Shown one piece after another: positions 9,031-28,397 of a DNA stretch of 35,286 nucleotides (its first letter is position 1; each line of letters opens with the position of its first letter). The notes below the pieces were generated by a model that was not told where the DNA came from, ran no database searches, and saw only the letters and a list, made by a program, of their open reading frames with translations. The stretch is from Nanobdellota archaeon. GTDB taxonomy: Archaea; Aenigmatarchaeota; Aenigmatarchaeia; Aenigmatarchaeales; Aenigmatarchaeaceae. The stretch is from contig JAHIEG010000006.1 of NCBI GenBank assembly GCA_018901655.1, positions 1 to 35,286 on the forward strand, written 5' to 3'. A program made the position numbers and the translations under genes.

Positions 9031-10311
9031 ATGCTTGACCTATATTTCGTATCAGTTATTGCATTTTTTATCATACTAGGACTAGTCATATTTGCTGATC
9101 GAAAGAAAATTGAAATTAAATCATATGTAATCTTTATGAGAAGAACAAAAAGATTTAGAATTTTAATAGATGAAATAGCACAATTTTGGCCTGGATTTTG
9201 GAAAACAATAGGAACATTTGGAATAATAGTATGCTTTCTATACATGTTGCTTGGAACTGGATTTTTAATTAATAGTTCATACAACATAGCAGCGGGATTA
9301 GTTGACAAACCAACTATATCTTTAGTACTTCCAACGCCATTTTCTCAAGCATCTATAGGACCAGGATATATGAGTTTCCCATTCTGGTCGTGGTTCTTAA
9401 TTATACTAATGATACTAATTCCACACGAACTATCTCATGGAATATTATCTAGAACAGAAAAAATTAAATTAAAATCAGTTGGATTGCTATTACTTGTCCT
9501 ATCTCCAATAGCATTATTCATTACTGGACTATATGGTCTAATCGCTGGTGCCTTAACACTTGAAAGTCTTATGGTAGCACTATTCTTAATACTTCCTGGA
9601 GCATTTGTAGAACCAGATGAAAAACAACTAAAAAAGGCTAAAACAATAACAAGGCTTAGAGTATTTGCAGGAGGTTCTGCTGCTAACATATTTGTTGGAC
9701 TTACCGTGTTTATGATTACTGCTTTCATTTTATGGCCAGCTATGATTAGTCCAGGTGTTGATATTTTCTATGTAAACCAATCAAGCCCAGCATCTAATGC
9801 AGGTTTAACAAATGGTACAATTATAACACATATTAATAATATTCCGGTCTCAGTAAGTTATTGTGAATATAATAATGGTGGAATAAATGCATTCCTTCCA
9901 TACATGTGTAAATCAGGTTCTGGATATTTTGTAGAAGAAATTGGACAAGCTAAAATAGGAGATAATATACAAATGAGATCAGATGAAAAAACTTATGACA
10001 TATTAGTAAAAGCAGTTGAAGTTGATGGAATTGAATATCCTTTTGTTGGAATACTTTACAAACCAATTATTAAAAACGGCGATCCCGGATTCCTATTTAG
10101 TCTAATAAGCTTTATGAGTTTACTTTGGATATTTTCATTTGCAGTTGCTATATTCAATATATTACCAATCTACCCTCTAGATGGTGGGTTAATGGTTGAA
10201 ACTATTATTGAAAGGTTTAATAAGAAAAGCGCAAAAAAAATAGCTAGAGCAATAAGCTTAATTGTATTATTAATACTTTTGTATAACTTCTTTGGACCAC
10301 TACTAATGTAA
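9031..10311 (+). CDS. Site-2 protease family (M50) intramembrane metallopeptidase
   Basis: The 426-residue multi-pass membrane protein carries the zinc motif HELSH at 132-136 inside a hydrophobic helix and the second-ligand motif NILPIYPLDGG near residue 380, the two hallmarks of M50 proteases. Between them lies an extracytoplasmic PDZ-like insert (about 245-330; VNQSSPASNAGLTNGTIITHINNIPV), which in this family controls substrate access. Such enzymes cut transmembrane regulators within the bilayer; no partner is visible nearby. It has one N-terminal transmembrane segment, then a cluster of segments around the active site. The start lies just inside the divergent lysS promoter region, and a leaderless mRNA is likely. 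Its stop codon overlaps the first copy of the intergenic repeat. Confidence 0.9.
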   Translation: MLDLYFVSVIAFFIILGLVIFADRKKIEIKSYVIFMRRTKRFRILIDEIAQFWPGFWKTIGTFGIIVCFLYMLLGTGFLINSSYNIAAGLVDKPTISLVLPTPFSQASIGPGYMSFPFWSWFLIILMILIPHELSHGILSRTEKIKLKSVGLLLLVLSPIALFITGLYGLIAGALTLESLMVALFLILPGAFVEPDEKQLKKAKTITRLRVFAGGSAANIFVGLTVFMITAFILWPAMISPGVDIFYVNQSSPASNAGLTNGTIITHINNIPVSVSYCEYNNGGINAFLPYMCKSGSGYFVEEIGQAKIGDNIQMRSDEKTYDILVKAVEVDGIEYPFVGILYKPIIKNGDPGFLFSLISFMSLLWIFSFAVAIFNILPIYPLDGGLMVETIIERFNKKSAKKIARAISLIVLLILLYNFFGPLLM

Positions 10312-10348
10312 GTCCGCCACCCAAAAGATAACATTAGCTAGAACCCAT
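10310..10348 (+). repeat. Intergenic repeat copy R1 (divergent)
   Basis: Begins AAGTCCGCCACCC and later reads AACATTAGCTAGAACCCA, a weak match to the AAGTCCACCACACC ... AACATTACCCAGAGTCCA consensus seen in R2. It starts at the stop codon of the site-2 protease gene and precedes the TATA box TATTTATAAAG (10370-10380) of the JAMM gene. Confidence 0.45.
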
Positions 10349-10413
10349 GTTAACTACCTTAAAGTGATGTATTTATAAAGATTATCTTCTAACCATTTAC
10401 TATAGGGATTACT

Positions 10414-11007
10414 ATGAAAAGTAAATTATTTCAAAAAAACACAAGTGAAAATGTCAGAATAGAGATAATTCAATCACCGTTTGGAGATGATGGAATAGAG
10501 ATAATTGGTGAGCCATCTCGATTTTATAATAATTATATATTGAATATACCGGAAAAAATATTATCTGTACAAAAAACTCTGGGAATAGAGGAATGTATAT
10601 GGTTTGGAGCTCGAAAAATTACCGATAAAGAATATATTTTAGAAGATTTTTACATACCAAAAAAACAAGAAATCGGTTCTGTAACAGGTAAAATAAGCGC
10701 AGAAGAAAATTGTAAAACATTGAAGTATTTTGATCATAGTGGATTGAGAGCAATGATGCTTGGTCATAAACATCCAACAGATTATATTTCCCCTTCTAAT
10801 TTAGATATTAAAGAAATGGAAAGCCGACCAGGAATAATTTTTTCTATTATATCTGAATATAATGATAAAATTGGATTTTATTGTTTAAAAGAAACTTGGC
10901 GTGGAGAAAAACAAAATATTTCTGTAGAATTACCATCATCTGCAAAATTAATAGAAAGAGACAGAAATTCAAGTATTTTTGGATTATATGAAATTTATCA
11001 AATCTAA
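10414..11007 (+). CDS. JAMM/MPN+ metalloprotease-domain protein
   Basis: The 197-residue product has the complete JAMM signature H118-K-H120-P-x6-S128-x-x-D131 (HxH, ten residues, Asp), in GHKHPTDYISPSNLD. These ligands hold a zinc that hydrolyses isopeptide or peptide bonds in deubiquitinase-like enzymes. A candidate activating Glu lies in the strands around residues 59-78. The first ~45 residues look like a variable beta region. Archaeal homologues process ubiquitin-like SAMP conjugates or sulfur-carrier proteins; none is visible here, so the substrate is unknown. The gene is a single cistron between repeat copies R1 and R2, with a TATA box about 35-45 bases upstream. Confidence 0.8.
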   Translation: MKSKLFQKNTSENVRIEIIQSPFGDDGIEIIGEPSRFYNNYILNIPEKILSVQKTLGIEECIWFGARKITDKEYILEDFYIPKKQEIGSVTGKISAEENCKTLKYFDHSGLRAMMLGHKHPTDYISPSNLDIKEMESRPGIIFSIISEYNDKIGFYCLKETWRGEKQNISVELPSSAKLIERDRNSSIFGLYEIYQI

Positions 11008-11014
11008 ACAGTAG

Positions 11015-11057
11015 AAGTCCACCACACCATTTAGTAACATTACCCAGAGTCCACCAA
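11015..11057 (+). repeat. Intergenic repeat copy R2
   Basis: Reads AAGTCCACCACACC, then ATTTAGTAACATTACCCAGAG, then TCCACCAA. Its 11020-11054 segment is identical over 35 bases to 13335-13369 (copy R5). It lies between the JAMM stop and the promoter of the HELGH gene. Confidence 0.85.
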
Positions 11058-11068
11058 AAATCAAGATT

Positions 11069-11112
11069 TATTTAAACTGTTTCTACAATATATTTAAACT
11101 GTTTCTACAATA
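11069..11112 (+). repeat. Tandem 22-bp duplication carrying two TATA boxes
   Basis: Units 11069-11090 and 11091-11112 are identical. Each starts TATTTAAACTG and ends TTTCTACAATA, so the TATA box (TTTAAA) is present twice, 22 bp apart, upstream of the gene at 11133. The second copy is correctly placed for a short leader that includes AGGTGA. Confidence 0.85.
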
Positions 11113-11132
11113 TATTTACTAGGTGAATAATA

Positions 11133-11585
11133 GTGGTAACAAAAAAAGAAGTTGATAAATTCATAAAAAATCAGAAAAGCATTCATTTGTATAAAAAAGT
11201 TCAGAAAGCATTAAGAGATGTTTTGTTAGCCATGTCTGATGAAGATTATAGGAAAGTAACAAAAAATCTTATTTTAATGGTTGTTCATGAAACTTCATAT
11301 GGACAACTTATGTATCATTCACCAGTTAAATCAAAATTTAAAATATTACAATTGTCTGTAGCCAAAGATATTGACATTAATATTCTTAGATGGATTATTG
11401 CACATGAACTTGGTCATGCAACACAAGGAAGAAACTGGAGAAGAGGAGACGATGAAAAATTAGAAAAAGATGCAGATAAAAAAGCAGAAAAGTGGGGGTT
11501 TAAAAAAACAAAGGCAATACAGAAATATGGAGATAAAGAATATACAGGAATAAAAAAATTATATAAAAGAATAAATAAAAAATAA
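11133..11585 (+). CDS. Small HELGH zinc metallopeptidase (ImmA/SprT-like), GTG start
   Basis: The 150-residue product has the zinc-peptidase motif IIAHELGHATQG with H91, E92 and H95, followed by a likely third ligand in EKDADKKAEKWGF (E111-x-x-A-D), an arrangement seen in ImmA/IrrE and related minimal gluzincins. There is no signal peptide and both ends are very Lys-rich, so a cytoplasmic, possibly nucleic-acid-associated protein is likely. Known relatives cleave repressors or protein-DNA crosslinks; the target here is unknown. The start codon is GTG, supported by AGGTGA six bases ahead; no ATG occurs nearby. The promoter TATA box is duplicated in tandem. The gene sits between repeat copies R2 and R3 as a single-gene unit. 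Confidence 0.75.
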   Translation: MVTKKEVDKFIKNQKSIHLYKKVQKALRDVLLAMSDEDYRKVTKNLILMVVHETSYGQLMYHSPVKSKFKILQLSVAKDIDINILRWIIAHELGHATQGRNWRRGDDEKLEKDADKKAEKWGFKKTKAIQKYGDKEYTGIKKLYKRINKK

Positions 11586-11621
11586 AGCAAATCTACACTG
11601 TGATGTGCTTATATTCTAATT

Positions 11622-11664
11622 AAGCCCATTTCATCATTTAGTCACATTACCCAGAGCCTACCAA
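11622..11664 (+). repeat. Intergenic repeat copy R3
   Basis: Matches R2 at about 35 of 43 positions, with the core ACATTACCCAGAG intact. It precedes the promoter CTTTTATATTC (about 11677-11687) of the nucleotidyltransferase gene. Confidence 0.75.
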
Positions 11665-11706
11665 AATTAAGAAAGGCTTTTATATTCTATTTATTAATAA
11701 CTTAAT

Positions 11707-12519
11707 ATGGGTAATAAAGAATTAACTAAAACTGCAAAAGAGGTTTCTAAACTTTTACAAAAACTTCCAGAAGTTAAAGCAATTGCTATTTATGGTTCTG
11801 TTGCAAAAGGAGTTTTTGATGAACATTCTGATATTGACATTATTTGTTTGTCTACAAAGGTACCTAAAATTACAGCAGTTAAAACACTTTTAAAAGAAAA
11901 TAAAATCGGAATTGGTGAAATAAAACGAACAGGTGGTCTGAATGACCATGCAATGTATGTTGCACATTTCAAGAATAGAGAAATCCAAATTTTGTTTTTC
12001 TCGCTATATGTAATTGAAAATAACATAAAAGAAATTAAAAGAAGAGGTTACATATTTAAAGGTGAATCACATGTGGTAGATAAATCTTTTTATAATATTA
12101 TACTATGGGACCCGAATAAAATATTTAAACGATTCAAAACACGATTAAAGAAACATACCGATAGTAAACCTTATGTTAAAAATATTTTATGGGCAGGAGT
12201 GAAGAAATTTGCAAAAGGTACCGAAGTATTTATAGCATTAAAAAGAGGAGGATATATTTGGATAAATAGCATGATAAATAGTAAATTAAATGATTATTTA
12301 GATTGTCTTTATACGATAAATGGTCGTTTTTTTCATGCTGGAGAACCAAAATGGGCATTTAAACAGATTCCAGCTTTTAAATATAAGCCAAAAAACTGTG
12401 TTAAACGTTTAGAGCAAATATCTTTACTTGGAAATGGTCCAAAAGATTTGAAGAAAAAAATGAGAATATTCAAAACCCTGATAAAAGATACAGAACCATT
12501 AATAAGAAAGGGGAAATAA
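11707..12519 (+). CDS. Nucleotidyltransferase-fold protein (pol-beta superfamily)
   Basis: The N-terminal domain of this 270-residue protein has the superfamily motif IYGSVAKG (GS at 30-31) followed by HSDIDI (D42 and D44 as metal ligands), and a third acidic position is likely in REIQILFF. The C-terminal ~140 residues are helical and basic (KTRLKKHTDSKPYVKNILWAGVKKFAKGTEVFIALKRGG in pieces), as in DUF4037-like and antibiotic adenylyltransferase relatives. It would transfer an NMP to a small molecule, protein or RNA; the substrate cannot be read from sequence. A TATA box about 25 bases before the ATG suggests a leaderless mRNA. The M23-like gene follows with no gap, so the two form an operon within one repeat-bounded unit. 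Confidence 0.8.
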   Translation: MGNKELTKTAKEVSKLLQKLPEVKAIAIYGSVAKGVFDEHSDIDIICLSTKVPKITAVKTLLKENKIGIGEIKRTGGLNDHAMYVAHFKNREIQILFFSLYVIENNIKEIKRRGYIFKGESHVVDKSFYNIILWDPNKIFKRFKTRLKKHTDSKPYVKNILWAGVKKFAKGTEVFIALKRGGYIWINSMINSKLNDYLDCLYTINGRFFHAGEPKWAFKQIPAFKYKPKNCVKRLEQISLLGNGPKDLKKKMRIFKTLIKDTEPLIRKGK

Positions 12520-13026
12520 ATGAAAACAAAAAACATCTATTCATATCCAATAAATAAAAAGAATATTCAAAATGTAATAACAAAAGAATCTCCAGGCCAT
12601 ATATTATATCATAATGAAAAAACTGGATTTAAGTTTGATTTAAGAAATGCTACTGATTTTCTATGTGATGAGGGAACTTCTGTAATAGCAGCTTTAGATG
12701 GTGAAGTTATTGCTGTAATTGATAATGTAACAAAGAATTATGATGGAATGAATCCACCAATAGAAGATATTCTTTCTGAAAATGAACAAGTTGATAATGA
12801 AATAGTAATTAAGCATACTAATGGTGAATTTACAGACTATTGTCATTTGAAGCACAAAGGAGTTTTAGTAAAACCTGGTCAAAAAGTTAAAGCTGGTGAT
12901 ACTATTGGTTATAGTGGGGATACTGGGTGGTCAATTAAACCACATCTTCATTTTGTAGTATTCAGATTTTTGAAAGAAAAACCAGTAAAAGAATTAGAAA
13001 GTTTAAAAATACAGTTTAAAGAATAA
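12520..13026 (+). CDS. M23/LytM-fold peptidase-like protein lacking signal peptide and first His ligand
   Basis: The 168-residue product has the duplicated-hybrid-like M23 fold: TDFLCDEGTSVIAALDGEVI, DYCHLKHKGVLVKPGQKV and PHLHFVVF. D46, H109, H142 and H144 match ligand or catalytic positions, but the usual first His of HxxxD is Arg42, so catalysis is uncertain. M23 enzymes normally cut peptidoglycan crosslinks outside the cell; archaea lack that wall and no signal peptide is present, so this probably acts inside the cell or is a repurposed fold. The start codon follows the nucleotidyltransferase stop directly and they are surely cotranscribed. Repeat copy R4 starts just after the stop. Confidence 0.75.
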   Translation: MKTKNIYSYPINKKNIQNVITKESPGHILYHNEKTGFKFDLRNATDFLCDEGTSVIAALDGEVIAVIDNVTKNYDGMNPPIEDILSENEQVDNEIVIKHTNGEFTDYCHLKHKGVLVKPGQKVKAGDTIGYSGDTGWSIKPHLHFVVFRFLKEKPVKELESLKIQFKE

Positions 13027-13032
13027 CACTTT

Positions 13033-13065
13033 AAGCCCACCACACACTTTAGTCACATTGAACCC
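13033..13065 (+). repeat. Intergenic repeat copy R4
   Basis: AAGCCCACCACACACTTTAG then TCACATT matches R2 over its first ~28 bases with about five differences, then diverges. It precedes the TATA-like GAATTTAAATC (about 13092-13102) of the 42-residue ORF. Confidence 0.65.
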
Positions 13066-13123
13066 TTTAGAAAAGTGTTCATCCAAAACGCGAATTTAAA
13101 TCCTTTTCTATCTTAGTATAATT

Positions 13124-13252
13124 ATGTATATAATACAAACCTCAAGTAATACTCCTGCATTGATTATACCTAAATCGTATCTTAGGGACCATTTAGTAAG
13201 AATCGATGACAGTACTTATGAAAAATTAACAGATTTTGTTAAAATTGATTAG
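13124..13252 (+). CDS. 42-residue microprotein, antitoxin-like fragment
   Basis: The ORF starts MYIIQTSSNTPALIIPKSYL, continues RDHLVRIDDSTYEKLTDFVK and ends ID. IIPKSYLRDHL resembles the strand-turn of AbrB/SpoVT-type swapped-hairpin antitoxins, and VRIDDSTYEKLTDF resembles the opening of ribbon-helix-helix antitoxins; neither domain is complete. A TATA box about 25 bases before the ATG supports transcription as a leaderless mRNA. It is the fourth repeat-promoter-gene unit. No toxin gene follows. Confidence 0.45.
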   Translation: MYIIQTSSNTPALIIPKSYLRDHLVRIDDSTYEKLTDFVKID

Positions 13253-13334
13253 AAATAATTAACCATTTTATTTAATTTGGTCAGCATAAAAATCAAAAGT
13301 ATTAGCAATTAACTCAAAATATTCTAAAAAGGGA

Positions 13335-13369
13335 CACCACACCATTTAGTAACATTACCCAGAGTCCAC
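13335..13369 (+). repeat. Intergenic repeat copy R5 (35 bp identical to R2)
   Basis: CACCACACCATTTAG then TAACATTACCCAGAGTCCAC, identical to 11020-11054. No plus-strand gene follows. Instead an inverted partner of its first 15 bases (AAATGTGGTGTG, 13393-13404) starts a perfect hairpin. The bases 13253-13334 hold nothing I can identify. Confidence 0.85.
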
Positions 13370-13416: not shown

Positions 13417-13451
13417 TAAATTATTATTAAAACATTTTAATTGAAATGTAT

Positions 13452-13508
13452 TTAATCTTCTTCGTCTTCATCATCGTCGAAATCATCGTCGTCGTCATCC
13501 CATTTCAT
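13452..13508 (-). CDS. Acidic 18-residue micro-ORF
   Basis: MKWDDDDDDFDDDEDEED: 15 of 18 residues are Asp or Glu. GTGATT lies a few bases before the ATG. It is downstream of the Lys-rich micro-ORF on the same strand and followed by the hairpin at 13397-13416. No homologue is known to me. It might bind a basic partner electrostatically. Confidence 0.5.
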   Translation of the reverse strand: MKWDDDDDDFDDDEDEED

Positions 13509-13553
13509 TTTTAATCACTTCTTTTTATTTAACTAAAAATTCTTTAACTTAAT

Positions 13554-13586
13554 TTATTTTTTTTCTGCTTTTTTCTTTTTTGCCAT
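13554..13586 (-). CDS. Lys-rich 10-residue micro-ORF with very strong ribosome-binding site
   Basis: MAKKKKAEKK. The upstream AAAGGAGGTG, ten bases before the ATG, is among the best Shine-Dalgarno matches in the window. A TATA-like TTAAATTATAGA (about 13625-13636) stands further upstream. The signals argue for translation even though the product is tiny; alternatively the ribosome-binding site serves as a leader for the acidic frame 45 bases downstream. Confidence 0.5.
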   Translation of the reverse strand: MAKKKKAEKK

Positions 13587-13719
13587 ATTTACTACACCTC
13601 CTTTTACTAGTGTACAATACGTCTATAATTTAATAAGGAATCGAACCTGTATTTAAAGAAGTTGAAGTATTTTGTCAAAATTATGCATTATATAGCATAT
13701 TATTTTTTCATGTTTATTT

Positions 13720-14118
13720 CTAAACAACTTTTAATTCTTTAACATCAGAATTTCTAGAAAGAAGTTCTCGAATAATTTTAATATTAGATCCACCTTTACC
13801 AAATACCGCTCCTCTATCTTTAGCAAGTAAAGTAACCTGAGCTTTACCACTGTTTAAAACTATTGTCTGAGCTTGTGGAATCATATTTTTAATAAACGCT
13901 TTATCCTCTTCATTCCATTCAAAGAGTTTAATTTGTTTTTTCAAAGCACGTTCTGCTTTCTTAATTGTCTCCCCACCTTTTCCAATAGCTATAGCAGCTT
14001 TCCCAGAATTAACTAAGAAATATATAACATCATTTGAAATACAATCCCTTACCTCTGTTTTAGTCATTGTTTCAAATGCTGAAATTAGACCTATCATCTC
14101 TGTATCAAATTCTCTCAT
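13720..14118 (-). CDS. nusA: NusA-like KH-domain transcription factor
   Basis: The archaeal NusA homologue, ~132 residues, lacks the bacterial N- and S1 domains and consists of two KH RNA-binding domains. The GxxG loops are visible as AIGKGGETIKKAE and VFGKGGSNIKIIRE. It is thought to act in elongation or termination with RNA polymerase, in line with its place as last gene of the polymerase operon. ATG 14118 is chosen because AAGTGA lies just ahead; its TGA is also the stop codon of rpl30e. A codon earlier, TTG is in frame but lacks support. Confidence 0.93.
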   Translation of the reverse strand: MREFDTEMIGLISAFETMTKTEVRDCISNDVIYFLVNSGKAAIAIGKGGETIKKAERALKKQIKLFEWNEEDKAFIKNMIPQAQTIVLNSGKAQVTLLAKDRGAVFGKGGSNIKIIRELLSRNSDVKELKVV

Positions 14119-14122
14119 CAAA

Positions 14123-17990: not shown

Positions 17991-20900
17991 TTAACCGCTC
18001 ACATTTAATTTTGGATATATCATCATTGCTTTTAATTCATCCAATAATAATTTGAATGCATATGACATCTCTGTGTCAACAACATCAGTATCTTTACAAA
18101 CAGGACAAATATATTTGTCTTTTGTTCTATCCCATAATGCTACTAAACCACATGCCTTGCAAATTGGTATTATAATTTTATCTGAATCGAATCTTTCTTT
18201 TAATGTTAATACTGCACCATGTGCAATCAAACAATCCTTTTCCATTTCTCCTAATCTTAGACCACCTTCTTTTGCCTTACCTTCTGTTGGCTGTCTTGTT
18301 AGCAGTGTTACTGGTCCTCTTGATCTTGATTGTATCTTATTTGCAACCATATGATCAAGTTTCTGATAAAACACAAGTCCGGTAAAAATTTCAACATCAT
18401 ACTTTTCTCCAGTAATTCCATTATACATTACTTCTTTACCATCACTTCTAAATCCTAAACTTCTTAATAGGTTTTTAATATTATCTTCAGTCTCTCCTGT
18501 AAATGCTGAACCATCAATGCTATTTGCATTCAATGCAGCTGTTTTACTTGAAAGTATTTCTAATAACTGTCCAAATGTTTGTCTAGATGGTATTGAGTGA
18601 GGATTAACTATAATGTCTGGTGTTAAACCAGTTGAAGTAAATGGCATATTTTCTTCAAATTCAATTAAACCAATTACAGATTTCTGTCCATGTCTTGAAG
18701 CAAATTTATCTCCAAGTTCTGGAATTCTTAAATCTCTAACAGAAACTTTTGCAAGTTTTGCACCATTTCCAGTTGAAGTTAAAAATACTCTATCAACAAT
18801 TCCATTTTCTCCATGTCTAACTGCAACAGAATTTTCTCTCATATTAGCAATTCCTGACATCAACTCATTTGCTGATAAGAATCTCAATGGTGACATCCGT
18901 CCAACTAAAACATCATCACTCTTTACTACTAATTCTGGTGATATTACACCATCTTCTGCTAATTTCAAATAATCATCTTCAGTTCTATATCCTCTTACAT
19001 CTTTATCCGGAACTCCAATTTGGTCTTCTTGACCTCCCCAATATCTTTTCTGATCACCTGAATAAATTCTATAAAAAAATGAGCGAAATAAACCTCTGTC
19101 AATTGATGCCTTGTTAAACACAACAGCATCCTCCATATTATATCCATGATAACTTGAAACCGCAACAATTACATTTTGTCCTGCTGGATGATGTGTTAAA
19201 CCAGCAATTTCTGTTGTATCTGTATTTGTTAATGGTCTTTGTGGATACAATAATACGTTTGCCTTCGTATCAGTTCTAAGCATAAAATTATTTTGATAAA
19301 CACCAATAGCCTGTCCAACCATTTTAGCACCAAAGTTTACTCGGTCTCCTCTATTGTGTTCTGGGAATGTTACTAAACTTGCCGATAAGCCCAATATTGA
19401 AATCGGAACCAATTCTAAATGTGTATGATCAACTGTTATATCTTTTTCATAAAGCGCTGATAAAATAGAATCTTCTTCTTCTGCATCTATCATTTCAAAA
19501 ATACTCATCTTAATTAAATCAGACCATCTTATTTCTCCTTCTTCTAATTTTCTTAAATGTTCTTCTGTTAATCTTGGTATCTTATTTTCTACAACTATTA
19601 GCGGTCTTCTTACTCTTCCTATATCTGTATTAATTCTTACCTCTTTAGTATCAGGATAAAAAGAAAAATTAACTTCACTCGTAATCTTTCCTGTTCTTCT
19701 TTTATCTCTTAAATTATCAACAAATTCTTTTCCATTTAACACACTTCCAATTGGAACTCCATCTAAAAATACCTCAACATCTCCTTCTTTATCAAATTTC
19801 ATATACGTTTTTAATTTAACCATTTCTTCTTCACTTGCACCTTTTGTAATTTCAGCAAACATTGAAAGATGTTTTCTCAAACCAATTGTAGGTCCTTCTG
19901 GTGTTTCTGCTGGACAAAATCTACCCCAATGTGTTGCATGTAACTCTCTTGCTTCAAAGTGTTCTTGAGTTGTTGTAAGTGGTGATAATGCTAATCTTAA
20001 ATGTGATAATGAATGAACATAATTTTTTCTTTCTAATCTTTGAGAAACTCCTGTTCGTCCACCTACCCATGCTCCTGTTGCCATTGCAGATGCTAATTGA
20101 TTTGTAACAACATTTGATTCAACAATAGTTTGAATTGGTGGTAATTTTCCTCTCTTTGCCATCTTCTGATAATTATATTTTATTCTTGCTACAAGCCCCC
20201 ATTTACCAACAAGAATTGATCTAAACAATAATTCCAATAAATCTCCAGATAATTTTATTCTTTTATTTCCATAATGATCTAAATCGTCTTCTGGTATTTT
20301 ATCAAGTGCAAGATTTGTTAATCTCTTAACTGCTTTCAAAAGATATCTTGCTTTTTCCATTCTATTTTTTGGTTCTTGGCCTAAATGTGGTAAAAGATAC
20401 TTATCAATCAGTGTTTCAACTCTCTGTTTCTGATATTCTTTTTGTATAATTTTCAAATGACCCGCAATATAAGTTATTGCTTGCCCAGGAGTTTGAACTT
20501 CGGTTTGATATAAATTACCATAAAATTCACTCATTACGTCTTCATCAGCAAGTTCATCTACAATATCTTTATCCTTCATCATACCAAGAATTTTAATTAA
20601 AACTACAATTGGTAATCTTCTAACATTTGCAAATGAAATATAAATCGAACCATCATTTTTTCGTTCAATAGAATGTCGTTGAACATATCCATTATGTTCT
20701 GAATTAACTCTTAACATCTCTGTAAAGTTCCCAATATTTTGCTTTTGGAGAATCATACGATTAGGTGCTATTTCTTCTATTAAAACTAAGGTTCTTTCTG
20801 TTCCATTCATTATAAAATATGCTCCTGGATCTTGACAATCTTCTCCATTTTCTATTAATTCTTCATCACTCATTTTGCTTAATGGACACAAATCTGATCT

Positions 20901-21257
20901 AAGCATAACTGGTATTTCACCAAATTGAACATTAACTGTTTCCTGTTCAGTTTTATTTATCTTAGGAATAAGCTCTACATAAACCGGAGCTGTATAAGAA
21001 AAATCTCTTAATCTTGCCTCCATTGGTAATATTTTTCTAACAGAACCTTCTGCTTCTTTAACTGAAGGTGCTCCAACAGTTACTTTACCTAAACCGATAA
21101 CAAGTTCGCCTATTTCTGGAACTTCTGGCCTTATCTCTTTAATCTCATTGACTATGCTTTGTAATCTATTTTTAACAAAATTATTATAACTTTGAATCTG
21201 AAAATCTACAAACCCGACATCCCTATCAAATGAATTTAATAATGCTTTACTGCTCAT
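17991..21257 (-). CDS. rpoB: DNA-directed RNA polymerase subunit B (unsplit)
   Basis: The second-largest subunit as a single ~1088-residue chain, not split into B' and B''. Visible: AETPEGPTIGLRKHLS, SYHGYNMEDAVVFN, FASRHGQKSVIG, MPFTSTGLTPDIIVNPHSIP, GEMEKDCLIAHGA, and the C-terminal zinc ribbon CKACGLVALWD...CPVC. ATG 21257 is chosen over the longer frame (21278), because the latter would start inside rpoH, and AAGTGA, which contains the rpoH stop, lies just ahead. Confidence 0.97.
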   Translation of the reverse strand: MSSKALLNSFDRDVGFVDFQIQSYNNFVKNRLQSIVNEIKEIRPEVPEIGELVIGLGKVTVGAPSVKEAEGSVRKILPMEARLRDFSYTAPVYVELIPKINKTEQETVNVQFGEIPVMLRSDLCPLSKMSDEELIENGEDCQDPGAYFIMNGTERTLVLIEEIAPNRMILQKQNIGNFTEMLRVNSEHNGYVQRHSIERKNDGSIYISFANVRRLPIVVLIKILGMMKDKDIVDELADEDVMSEFYGNLYQTEVQTPGQAITYIAGHLKIIQKEYQKQRVETLIDKYLLPHLGQEPKNRMEKARYLLKAVKRLTNLALDKIPEDDLDHYGNKRIKLSGDLLELLFRSILVGKWGLVARIKYNYQKMAKRGKLPPIQTIVESNVVTNQLASAMATGAWVGGRTGVSQRLERKNYVHSLSHLRLALSPLTTTQEHFEARELHATHWGRFCPAETPEGPTIGLRKHLSMFAEITKGASEEEMVKLKTYMKFDKEGDVEVFLDGVPIGSVLNGKEFVDNLRDKRRTGKITSEVNFSFYPDTKEVRINTDIGRVRRPLIVVENKIPRLTEEHLRKLEEGEIRWSDLIKMSIFEMIDAEEEDSILSALYEKDITVDHTHLELVPISILGLSASLVTFPEHNRGDRVNFGAKMVGQAIGVYQNNFMLRTDTKANVLLYPQRPLTNTDTTEIAGLTHHPAGQNVIVAVSSYHGYNMEDAVVFNKASIDRGLFRSFFYRIYSGDQKRYWGGQEDQIGVPDKDVRGYRTEDDYLKLAEDGVISPELVVKSDDVLVGRMSPLRFLSANELMSGIANMRENSVAVRHGENGIVDRVFLTSTGNGAKLAKVSVRDLRIPELGDKFASRHGQKSVIGLIEFEENMPFTSTGLTPDIIVNPHSIPSRQTFGQLLEILSSKTAALNANSIDGSAFTGETEDNIKNLLRSLGFRSDGKEVMYNGITGEKYDVEIFTGLVFYQKLDHMVANKIQSRSRGPVTLLTRQPTEGKAKEGGLRLGEMEKDCLIAHGAVLTLKERFDSDKIIIPICKACGLVALWDRTKDKYICPVCKDTDVVDTEMSYAFKLLLDELKAMMIYPKLNVSG

Positions 21258-21261
21258 GATA

Positions 21262-21507
21262 TCACTTCTTGACAACAAATCTGTAATATAGGGCTATTCC
21301 TGCTGTCGGGGAATCCCTAACTATTTTTAAAATATCTCCTTCTTCTGCTTCTATAGCCTTAACCGCAGGATCAGTTTTTAGAATTTTTGGTAACTGTTCT
21401 GCTATTATGTTAAATTTGTCTAGAAGTTCTTTTCTTTCTGCTTCACCAATAACGATATGTTCTGGTACTAATTCATGTGTCAGAACGTTAAATTCGTTAT
21501 CAGTCAA
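21262..21507 (-). CDS. rpoH: DNA-directed RNA polymerase subunit H, TTG start
   Basis: The 81-residue archaeal equivalent of eukaryotic RPB5 C-terminal domain: VLTHELVPEHIVIGEAERKE, then PKILKTDPAVKAI and the C-terminal IVRDSPTAGIALYYRFVV typical of subunit H. It is the first gene of the operon, the standard archaeal order. No ATG is in a suitable place; TTG 21507 follows GGTGATATA, so the start codon is TTG. Confidence 0.95.
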   Translation of the reverse strand: MTDNEFNVLTHELVPEHIVIGEAERKELLDKFNIIAEQLPKILKTDPAVKAIEAEEGDILKIVRDSPTAGIALYYRFVVKK

Positions 21508-27167: not shown

Positions 27168-28051
27168 ACTCTTACCTTCATCAAATCTTCAGCAATAATT
27201 GTATTTTTGAATATTTTTTGAACAGGTCTTAATATTTCTCCAGATGTTTTATACCTTCTACTAAAATGAGTAAGTGCTAATTTCTTTACTTTGTATTTTT
27301 TTGACCATCTGGCAACATCTTTAGCTGAAGCATGTGATTTAAACTCTTGTTCATCAAGATGTGTTCCATCATGAATTAAAAGATCAATTTCTTTTGCAGC
27401 TTTGAAAAGATCCTTTGATATCATCGTATCTCCAGAATAAATTACCCTTCTTCCAGGTGTTAATTTAGAAATATCTTTTAATTTAACAATTTTACTTCCA
27501 ATTTTTATTTTTCCACTTTCTTTAATTTCCTTCAAATCTTTTCCTTTTAATCCAAATTTATTTGCTTTCTTTATATCAATATGAATATGATCTTTTTCCT
27601 TGAAACAATAACCAACAGATGGAACCGAATGTATTGTTTTAACAGTTGTTATCTCAAATAATTCATTTTCAAACACTTTTTGATTTGGCTCAACATCTTT
27701 AGCAATTATATCAAATCCAATCCCCCAGTAACTTAATTCAGTTATAGCATCAATAAATCTAGAAGCATTTGGTCCATATACTTCCAATGCTTCTTTTCTC
27801 TTCTCAAGATGTAAAGTTTCAATCAGGGGTATTAATCCTGCAAAATGATCAGCATGCCAATGGCTAATGAATATTTTAGATATTTTTAATGGTGAAACCT
27901 TAGCTTTTTGTAATTGAACTTGAGTTCCTTCACCACAGTCAAATAAAATATACTCTCCAGAATAGTGCAATAAAACAGCTGAATGGTTTCTCTTTGGAGT
28001 TGGAACTGCTGCACCTGTTCCCAAAAACGTGATTTCTATTGGTTGTGGCAT
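27164..28051 (-). CDS. rnz: Ribonuclease Z (tRNA 3'-processing endonuclease)
   Basis: It cuts precursor tRNAs 3' of the discriminator base. The 295-residue short-form protein has LGTGAAVPTPKRNHS, the phosphodiesterase metal motif SHWHADHFAGL (HxHxDH), the exosite region, VIYSGDT with metal Asp, and LIHDGTHLDE and ALTHFSRRY. All tRNAs in this window carry encoded CCA, and two stand directly before coding genes, so 3' cleavage matters for mRNA release as well. The promoter lies in an 85-base divergent interval shared with the regulator at 28137. Confidence 0.95.
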   Translation of the reverse strand: MPQPIEITFLGTGAAVPTPKRNHSAVLLHYSGEYILFDCGEGTQVQLQKAKVSPLKISKIFISHWHADHFAGLIPLIETLHLEKRKEALEVYGPNASRFIDAITELSYWGIGFDIIAKDVEPNQKVFENELFEITTVKTIHSVPSVGYCFKEKDHIHIDIKKANKFGLKGKDLKEIKESGKIKIGSKIVKLKDISKLTPGRRVIYSGDTMISKDLFKAAKEIDLLIHDGTHLDEQEFKSHASAKDVARWSKKYKVKKLALTHFSRRYKTSGEILRPVQKIFKNTIIAEDLMKVRV

Positions 28052-28095
28052 AAAAGTAATTGGTTCTCTTTATTAATAATTTCGTTAAACCGATA

Positions 28096-28118
28096 GATTT
28101 ATATACTACCTAGTAGTA
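28096..28118 (+). promoter_or_regulatory. TATA box overlapping an inverted repeat (candidate operator)
   Basis: GATTTATATA (28096-28105) is followed by TACTAC-CTA-GTAGTA (28104-28118), a six-base inverted repeat that overlaps the TATA box end. A protein bound here would block TBP or the start site. The first gene downstream is a winged-helix regulator, so autoregulation is the simplest reading. Confidence 0.5.
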
Positions 28119-28136
28119 AGTATTATTAGGTGATTT

Positions 28137-28397
28137 ATGATGATTGAAAGACTTAAGCCTGTAATGAAACAAACACATGTAAAAATATTAGAAGCATTAG
28201 ACGGAGAAGGAAATATGGATTTAGGAACATTATATGAATTATCCGGTAGTAAAGGACACCCTTTGAATGTAATAACACCACTATATGAAAATAACCTTAT
28301 AGAACAATTGGGAGACAATTACGGCATAACAGAAGACGGTAAAAAAGCACTTAAAGAACATAAAAAAACCGGACAATATATTTTAGGTGATTTATGA
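28137..28397 (+). CDS. Small winged-helix regulator
   Basis: The ~86-residue product reads as one winged helix: VMKQTHVKILEALDGEGNM (helix 1), DLGTLYELSGSKGHPLNVITPLYENNLIE (helix-turn-helix) and a wing ending YGITEDGKKALKEH, typical of archaeal MarR/ArsR-like small regulators. AGGTGA precedes tandem ATG codons. It leads a three-gene operon and overlaps the next start by four bases. The dyad upstream is its likely site. Confidence 0.75.
   Translation: MMIERLKPVMKQTHVKILEALDGEGNMDLGTLYELSGSKGHPLNVITPLYENNLIEQLGDNYGITEDGKKALKEHKKTGQYILGDL

Follow-up and report, generated by a model that had tools for sequence, protein, structure and literature searches.

What does a sequence of about 40 bases do when it recurs between unrelated accessory genes in the chromosome of a tiny, symbiont-type archaeon? 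The window, a stretch of 35,286 nucleotides corresponding to contig C7 of a MAG of 664,824 bases (23 contigs, 84% complete), carries an array of such repeats. The first-pass annotation offered two readings of this array: exchangeable gene cassettes with a common joining sequence, or a set of promoters under one upstream-binding regulator.

The repeat and its copies

The five repeats of the window are real, starting at positions 10310 (R1), 11015 (R2), 11622 (R3), 13033 (R4) and about 13330 (R5), and R2 and R5 are identical over 35 bases as announced; R1 is degenerate and R4 partial. The consensus reads AAGTCCACCACACC-WTTTAGTMACATT-MCCCWGAGTCCACC. Three exact occurrences of the 20-mer TTTAGTNACATTACCCAGAG are found in the window (11030, 11637 and 13345), where 0.02 matches with up to three mismatches are expected. 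At the same tolerance the whole MAG yields eight matches, and the reversed-pattern control yields none. We built a profile and searched the whole MAG with it, retrieving nine clear copies: R2 to R5 and five more on three other contigs, namely C14:32671, C14:30998 and C14:27419 (all on the minus strand), C2:16470 and C5:9999. Full copies R2, R3 and R5 score between E ~1e-10 and 1e-13, R4 between 4e-4 and 9e-4. The profile search missed R1 at E<=10; by gapped alignment, the R1 intergenic region ranks 9th among 934 intergenic strands, right behind the eight regions with clear copies. The next-best intergenic matches in that ranking include both edges of an insertion on contig C2 and the end of the tRNA-Ala gene, to which we return below.

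Looking for the repeat beyond this genome, a class-wide pattern search covering 156 genomes found it in one relative only, G001, a sister-genus Nanoarchaeota MAG (JAHIDZ01, KR11_0.1) with one clear copy. Weak 20-mer matches in G019, G032 and G036 appeared chance-like on inspection, and a match at C7:19377 is coding sequence within the large ORF 17991-21278. Exact pattern scans of viral contigs gave no match, and Rfam has no repeat family in the repeat-bearing regions.

The array of the window lies between two conserved flanks, an M50 (site-2-type) protease gene (9031..10311, plus strand; Pfam PF02163, E=1.3e-21) and a convergent NusA-like KH gene (13720..14121, minus strand). All five repeats and the genes between them are on the plus strand. 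R1 (10310..10348) begins on the M50 stop codon and is followed by a JAMM-like ORF (10414..11007), with an HxHP...SxxD motif read from the sequence and no Pfam family. R2 (11015..11057; AAGTCCACCACACC-ATTTAGTAACATT-ACCCAGAGTCCACC; nhmmer E ~1e-12 to 1e-13) precedes a HELGH zinc-peptidase-like gene (11133..11585), whose matches are weak (M60, PF13402, E=5.8e-5, under the cut-off; Lit, E=2.9e-6). R3 (11622..11664; E ~3e-10) precedes a nucleotidyltransferase gene (11707..12519; PF01909, E=7.8e-9) and an M23 peptidase gene (12520..13026; PF01551, E=7.3e-20). R4 (13033..13089) is a hybrid according to profile search and folding: it agrees with the 5' two thirds of the consensus, up to TTTAGTCACATT, and thereafter reads GAACCCTTTAGAAAAGTGTTC, a hairpin. 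This right half recurs at C4:5976 of G001 and, weakly, at our C10:5840. A 42-aa microprotein gene (13124..13252; ORF only) separates R4 from R5 (13330..13369; E ~1e-11). The annotated position, behind one gene and before the TATA box of the next, therefore describes R1 to R4 and fails for R5, which has no same-strand gene after it.

The JAMM-like, HELGH and M23 genes have no homologue in G001. The nucleotidyltransferase gene is present there at a different locus, split over two contig ends, with 88-93% identical DNA, while the flanking nusA and rpo genes have 66-76% protein identity between the two genomes.

Several side observations concern these intergenic regions. The TATA region before the HELGH gene is duplicated in tandem (22 bp, window 11066-11109), and this promoter is nearly repeated before C2:11746. 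Very short Lys-rich and Asp-rich ORFs lie on the minus strand between nusA and R5 (13446-13640). Position C10:5840 (minus strand) may be a further joint, with AAGTCCACAACACTAATA followed by the hairpin GAACCCTTTCAAAAAGGTTTC, 1 nt past a stop codon. Many other intergenic motifs common across the MAG turned out to be promoter families, not joints. Near-identical promoter regions precede unrelated genes at, for example, C8:35692, C10:1591, C10:1956 and C10:3148, another family joins window 28032-28156 with C14:53749, C14:55746 and C17:8166, and one family has a CTACTAGGTAGTA-type palindrome over the TATA box.

Position of the repeats relative to genes

The repeats are anchored to the gene behind them. 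The upstream stop codon lies at most 12 nt from the repeat start in nine of the 11 measurable cases (p ~2e-5 against uniform placement), whereas the gap before the following start codon ranges over 72-129 nt. Three of ten copies (R5, C14:32671 and C14:30998) lack a same-strand gene downstream. Within one array all repeats point one way, even where genes are reversed.

Could the repeat act in RNA, as a 3'-UTR or terminator-like signal, C-rich and unstructured, that accompanies accessory genes without recombining? Its start 0-12 nt past stop codons would fit, as would the little or no single-strand structure of full copies. However, such a signal would leave unexplained the identity of the repeat with the tRNA-Ala 3' end, the start of an array at tRNA-Ala, and the core-like sequences that bound the C2 insertion on either side (see below). 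We regard this explanation as rather improbable.

The common-regulator reading would make the repeat an operator or activator site, with two AGTCCACC boxes about 32 bp (three helical turns) apart controlling accessory-gene promoters. The direct repeat of AGTCCACC is indeed found in full copies, R1 to R4 and the C2, C5 and C14:27419 copies do stand upstream of a start codon, and TATA-like boxes follow R2 and R3. However, a regulatory site should keep a set distance upstream of the promoter, and the geometry described above disfavours it: start distances vary, three copies have no gene to control on their strand, and position is set by the upstream stop codon. In addition, repeat orientation goes with the array and not with the gene. 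This half of the initial proposal is thus improbable.

The tRNA-Ala gene and the 3' part of the repeat

The 3' part of the repeat corresponds to the 3' end of the tRNA-Ala(TGC) gene (T-stem, acceptor and CCA). The C14:27419 and C2:16470 copies end in CCCCTGAGTCCACCATA, with 17 nt identical to the G001 tRNA-Ala(TGC) end. In our own genome, the tRNA-Ala end and the next repeat in the array, C14:32671, have the 15 nt CCCTGAGTCCACTTA in common. Window copies have CAGAG where the tRNA-type end has CTGAG. The W base of the core is A in the C7 and C5 arrays and T elsewhere (C14, C2); this constancy within arrays may mean that the right half of the core remains at the target, but local duplication would lead to it equally.

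The tRNA-Ala(TGC) gene (C14:33610-33483, minus strand) starts the C14 array. It contains two intron-like insertions, one in the anticodon loop and one in the T-loop, the latter directly preceding the 3' exon. Once both are taken out, the remainder folds into a cloverleaf and ARAGORN calls tRNA-Ala(tgc); the gene as it stands is missed by ARAGORN, and CCA is not encoded. From tRNA-Ala onwards, one gene precedes repeat 32671; a reversed pair of genes then leads to repeat 30998, and a reversed ArsR-like gene plus two further genes lead to repeat 27419. The interval between tRNA-Ala and the 16S rRNA gene contains different genes in G001. The 16S rRNA gene itself spans about 2.8 kb (C14:22342-25159) and therefore probably contains introns.

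It has been proposed that tRNA introns shield att sites (PMC3293823). The T-loop insertion directly 5' of the core bears on this proposal; here, the core is wholly 3' of the insertion.

Is the repeat then a passive tRNA-end derivative, MITE- or SINE-like, or a scattered 3' half of a split tRNA? The match to tRNA-Ala positions 60-76 and the T-loop insertion adjoining that very junction would suit such an origin. However, the acceptor stem is broken in several copies (CAGAG, CAGAGCC), the most conserved part of the repeat, TTTAGTMACATT, is not tRNA, and copies stand at insertion boundaries. As the tRNA-Ala gene is contiguous, we did not retain the split-tRNA version. Altogether we hold a passive origin to be no likelier than a regulon.

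Insertion sites and the repeat as a probable cassette joint

Comparison with relatives supports the cassette half of the initial proposal. In seven relatives (G001, G002, G003, G004, G006, G009 and G012) the M50 and nusA genes are adjacent, with a gap of a few to about 100 bases. EF1A and rpsJ, which are 2 nt apart in G001, are separated in our genome by a clean insertion of 1,685 bp (C2:15916-17600) that includes the C2 repeat, and an AGTCCAC or AGTCTACC core lies within about 12 nt of each edge of the insertion. With the exchanged genes between tRNA-Ala and 16S rRNA, we thus find inserts absent from relatives, different genes at one site, and junctions at or within about 12 nt of a repeat or core. 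G005 and G007 have other genes between M50 and nusA, with no recognisable repeat, and the empty G001 sites matching the window, C2 and C5 arrays show no obvious core. In G001, the repeat does not accompany the homologues of the nucleotidyltransferase, the C14 gene pair and a 65-aa C5 gene. We therefore do not claim that homologous cassettes have common ends between genera, and the nucleotidyltransferase and the C14 pair can also move otherwise. Our own assembly shows neither circular cassettes nor a polymorphic array.

An element with its own integrase is found at tRNA-Ala in G001. Within tRNA-Ala, three contigs of that assembly, C2, C1 and C4, share overlaps of 141 bp; C1 at its end reads through ACCCTGAGTCCACCATA and on into the beginning of C4. 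The assembly contains the tRNA-Ala site both occupied and empty, with a 16-bp core, CCCTGAGTCCACCATA. On the simplest reading of this contig graph, C1 would be a 25.5-kb integrative element present in part of the population. Its tyrosine recombinase, of 417 aa, is encoded on the same strand as the tRNA by a gene that begins 56 bp after the core, and its cargo includes a DISARM/BREX-like helicase and methyltransferase. The empty-side flank, GCTAAACTAGTG, is also found behind tRNA-Ala in G006, and this pairing of occupied and empty states joins that of the EF1A-rpsJ insertion. Further along G001 C4 lie a core (5003), a Fic gene, an R4-like repeat (5976), a 46-aa gene, a full repeat (6245) and a small gene. 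An integrase beside the rebuilt tRNA and on its strand is thus present in G001 C1, while no tRNA-Ala integrase was found for the arrays of our genome: among its three clear tyrosine recombinases (MAG 84% complete), none is close to the G001 enzyme (best ~28% identity). Separately, one tyrosine recombinase gene lies directly behind a tRNA-Arg(TCG) gene without CCA (C10:19165-20613), which probably marks a second tRNA-integrated element.

The insertion sites and the geometry fit cassette joints and not a promoter regulon, and we consider it fairly probable that the repeat is an att-type joint of small integrative units. That its 3' half is a tRNA-Ala 3' end, a point absent from the first-pass annotation, supplies the likely mechanism. 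Each unit would bring one or two accessory genes and a promoter for them, closed directly after the last stop codon by the conserved right end AAGTCCACCACACC-WTTTAGTMACATT, and then by the core MCCCWGAGTCCAC, a copy of the tRNA-Ala(TGC) 3' end. A tRNA-Ala-targeting tyrosine recombinase of the kind carried by the G001 25.5-kb element would join core to core, so that units would accumulate beside tRNA-Ala and, more rarely, at core-like positions in other places (M50-nusA, EF1A-rpsJ). We infer that the short units themselves were moved by core recombination and that an integrase acts in trans on integrase-less units; arrays away from tRNA-Ala would presumably have arisen through such core-like sites. 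Several facts speak against the att reading: the window, C2 and C5 arrays do not lie at tRNA-Ala, and the empty G001 sites there have no obvious core; no integrase close to the G001 enzyme was found in our MAG (84% complete); cassette genes occur in G001 without the repeat; the W base of the core differs between arrays; and our assembly shows no circular or polymorphic forms.

CIMEs are att-flanked segments without an integrase. Tandem accretion of att-flanked elements likewise piles integrase-less segments at one tRNA site (PMC5704250), but here units may hold a single gene, an extended conserved right end is fixed to the stop codon, and arrays lie inside ribosomal-protein and polymerase gene neighbourhoods. 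Archaeal integrative elements of the pNOB8 type also have a core equal to the tRNA 3' end (PMC8371274, PMC3293823); in contrast, our units of 0.3-6 kb hold 1-4 genes but lack an integrase, and several arrays lie away from tRNA genes. The cryptic integrated elements of Thaumarchaeota are likewise archaeal and att-flanked, with unknown cargo and often in tRNA genes, but they have an integrase by definition and measure 2.6-98 kb (PMC6563490), and our units differ from them in this.

The layout is also that of archaeal integrons and CALINs (PMC9668308), in which a gene plus a recombination site is repeated and genes are accessory. Integrons do exist in archaea and are defined there by attC structure (PMC9668308); the repeats are very improbable attC sites, since RYYYAAC and GTTRRRY boxes are absent from ten of ten copies, DNA folding energy is at or above that of shuffled sequences in most (R4 alone has a clear hairpin), and TIGR02249 matches lie far under the cut-off in the five recombinases scanned (one in part; MAG 84% complete). 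Moreover, the repeat is a double-stranded, tRNA-end-like sequence and its units have their own TATA-like promoters.

A broader and more tentative possibility is that DPANN archaea have an integron-like system of independent origin. Promoter-bearing cassettes of one or two genes, with a double-stranded, tRNA-Ala-derived att site and moved by a tyrosine recombinase, might stack at tRNA-Ala and spill into core operon regions, among them the rpo/nusA region and the str operon.

DPANN archaea with reduced genomes are believed to acquire genes from hosts and neighbours, by local machinery of which little is known. The repeats look more like part of a gene-swapping system that uses a tRNA-type landing site than like a gene switch, with small packets of accessory genes set in otherwise conserved stretches of the chromosome. 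With a marked joint sequence, captured genes could be counted, and the process tested, wherever a related MAG is available.
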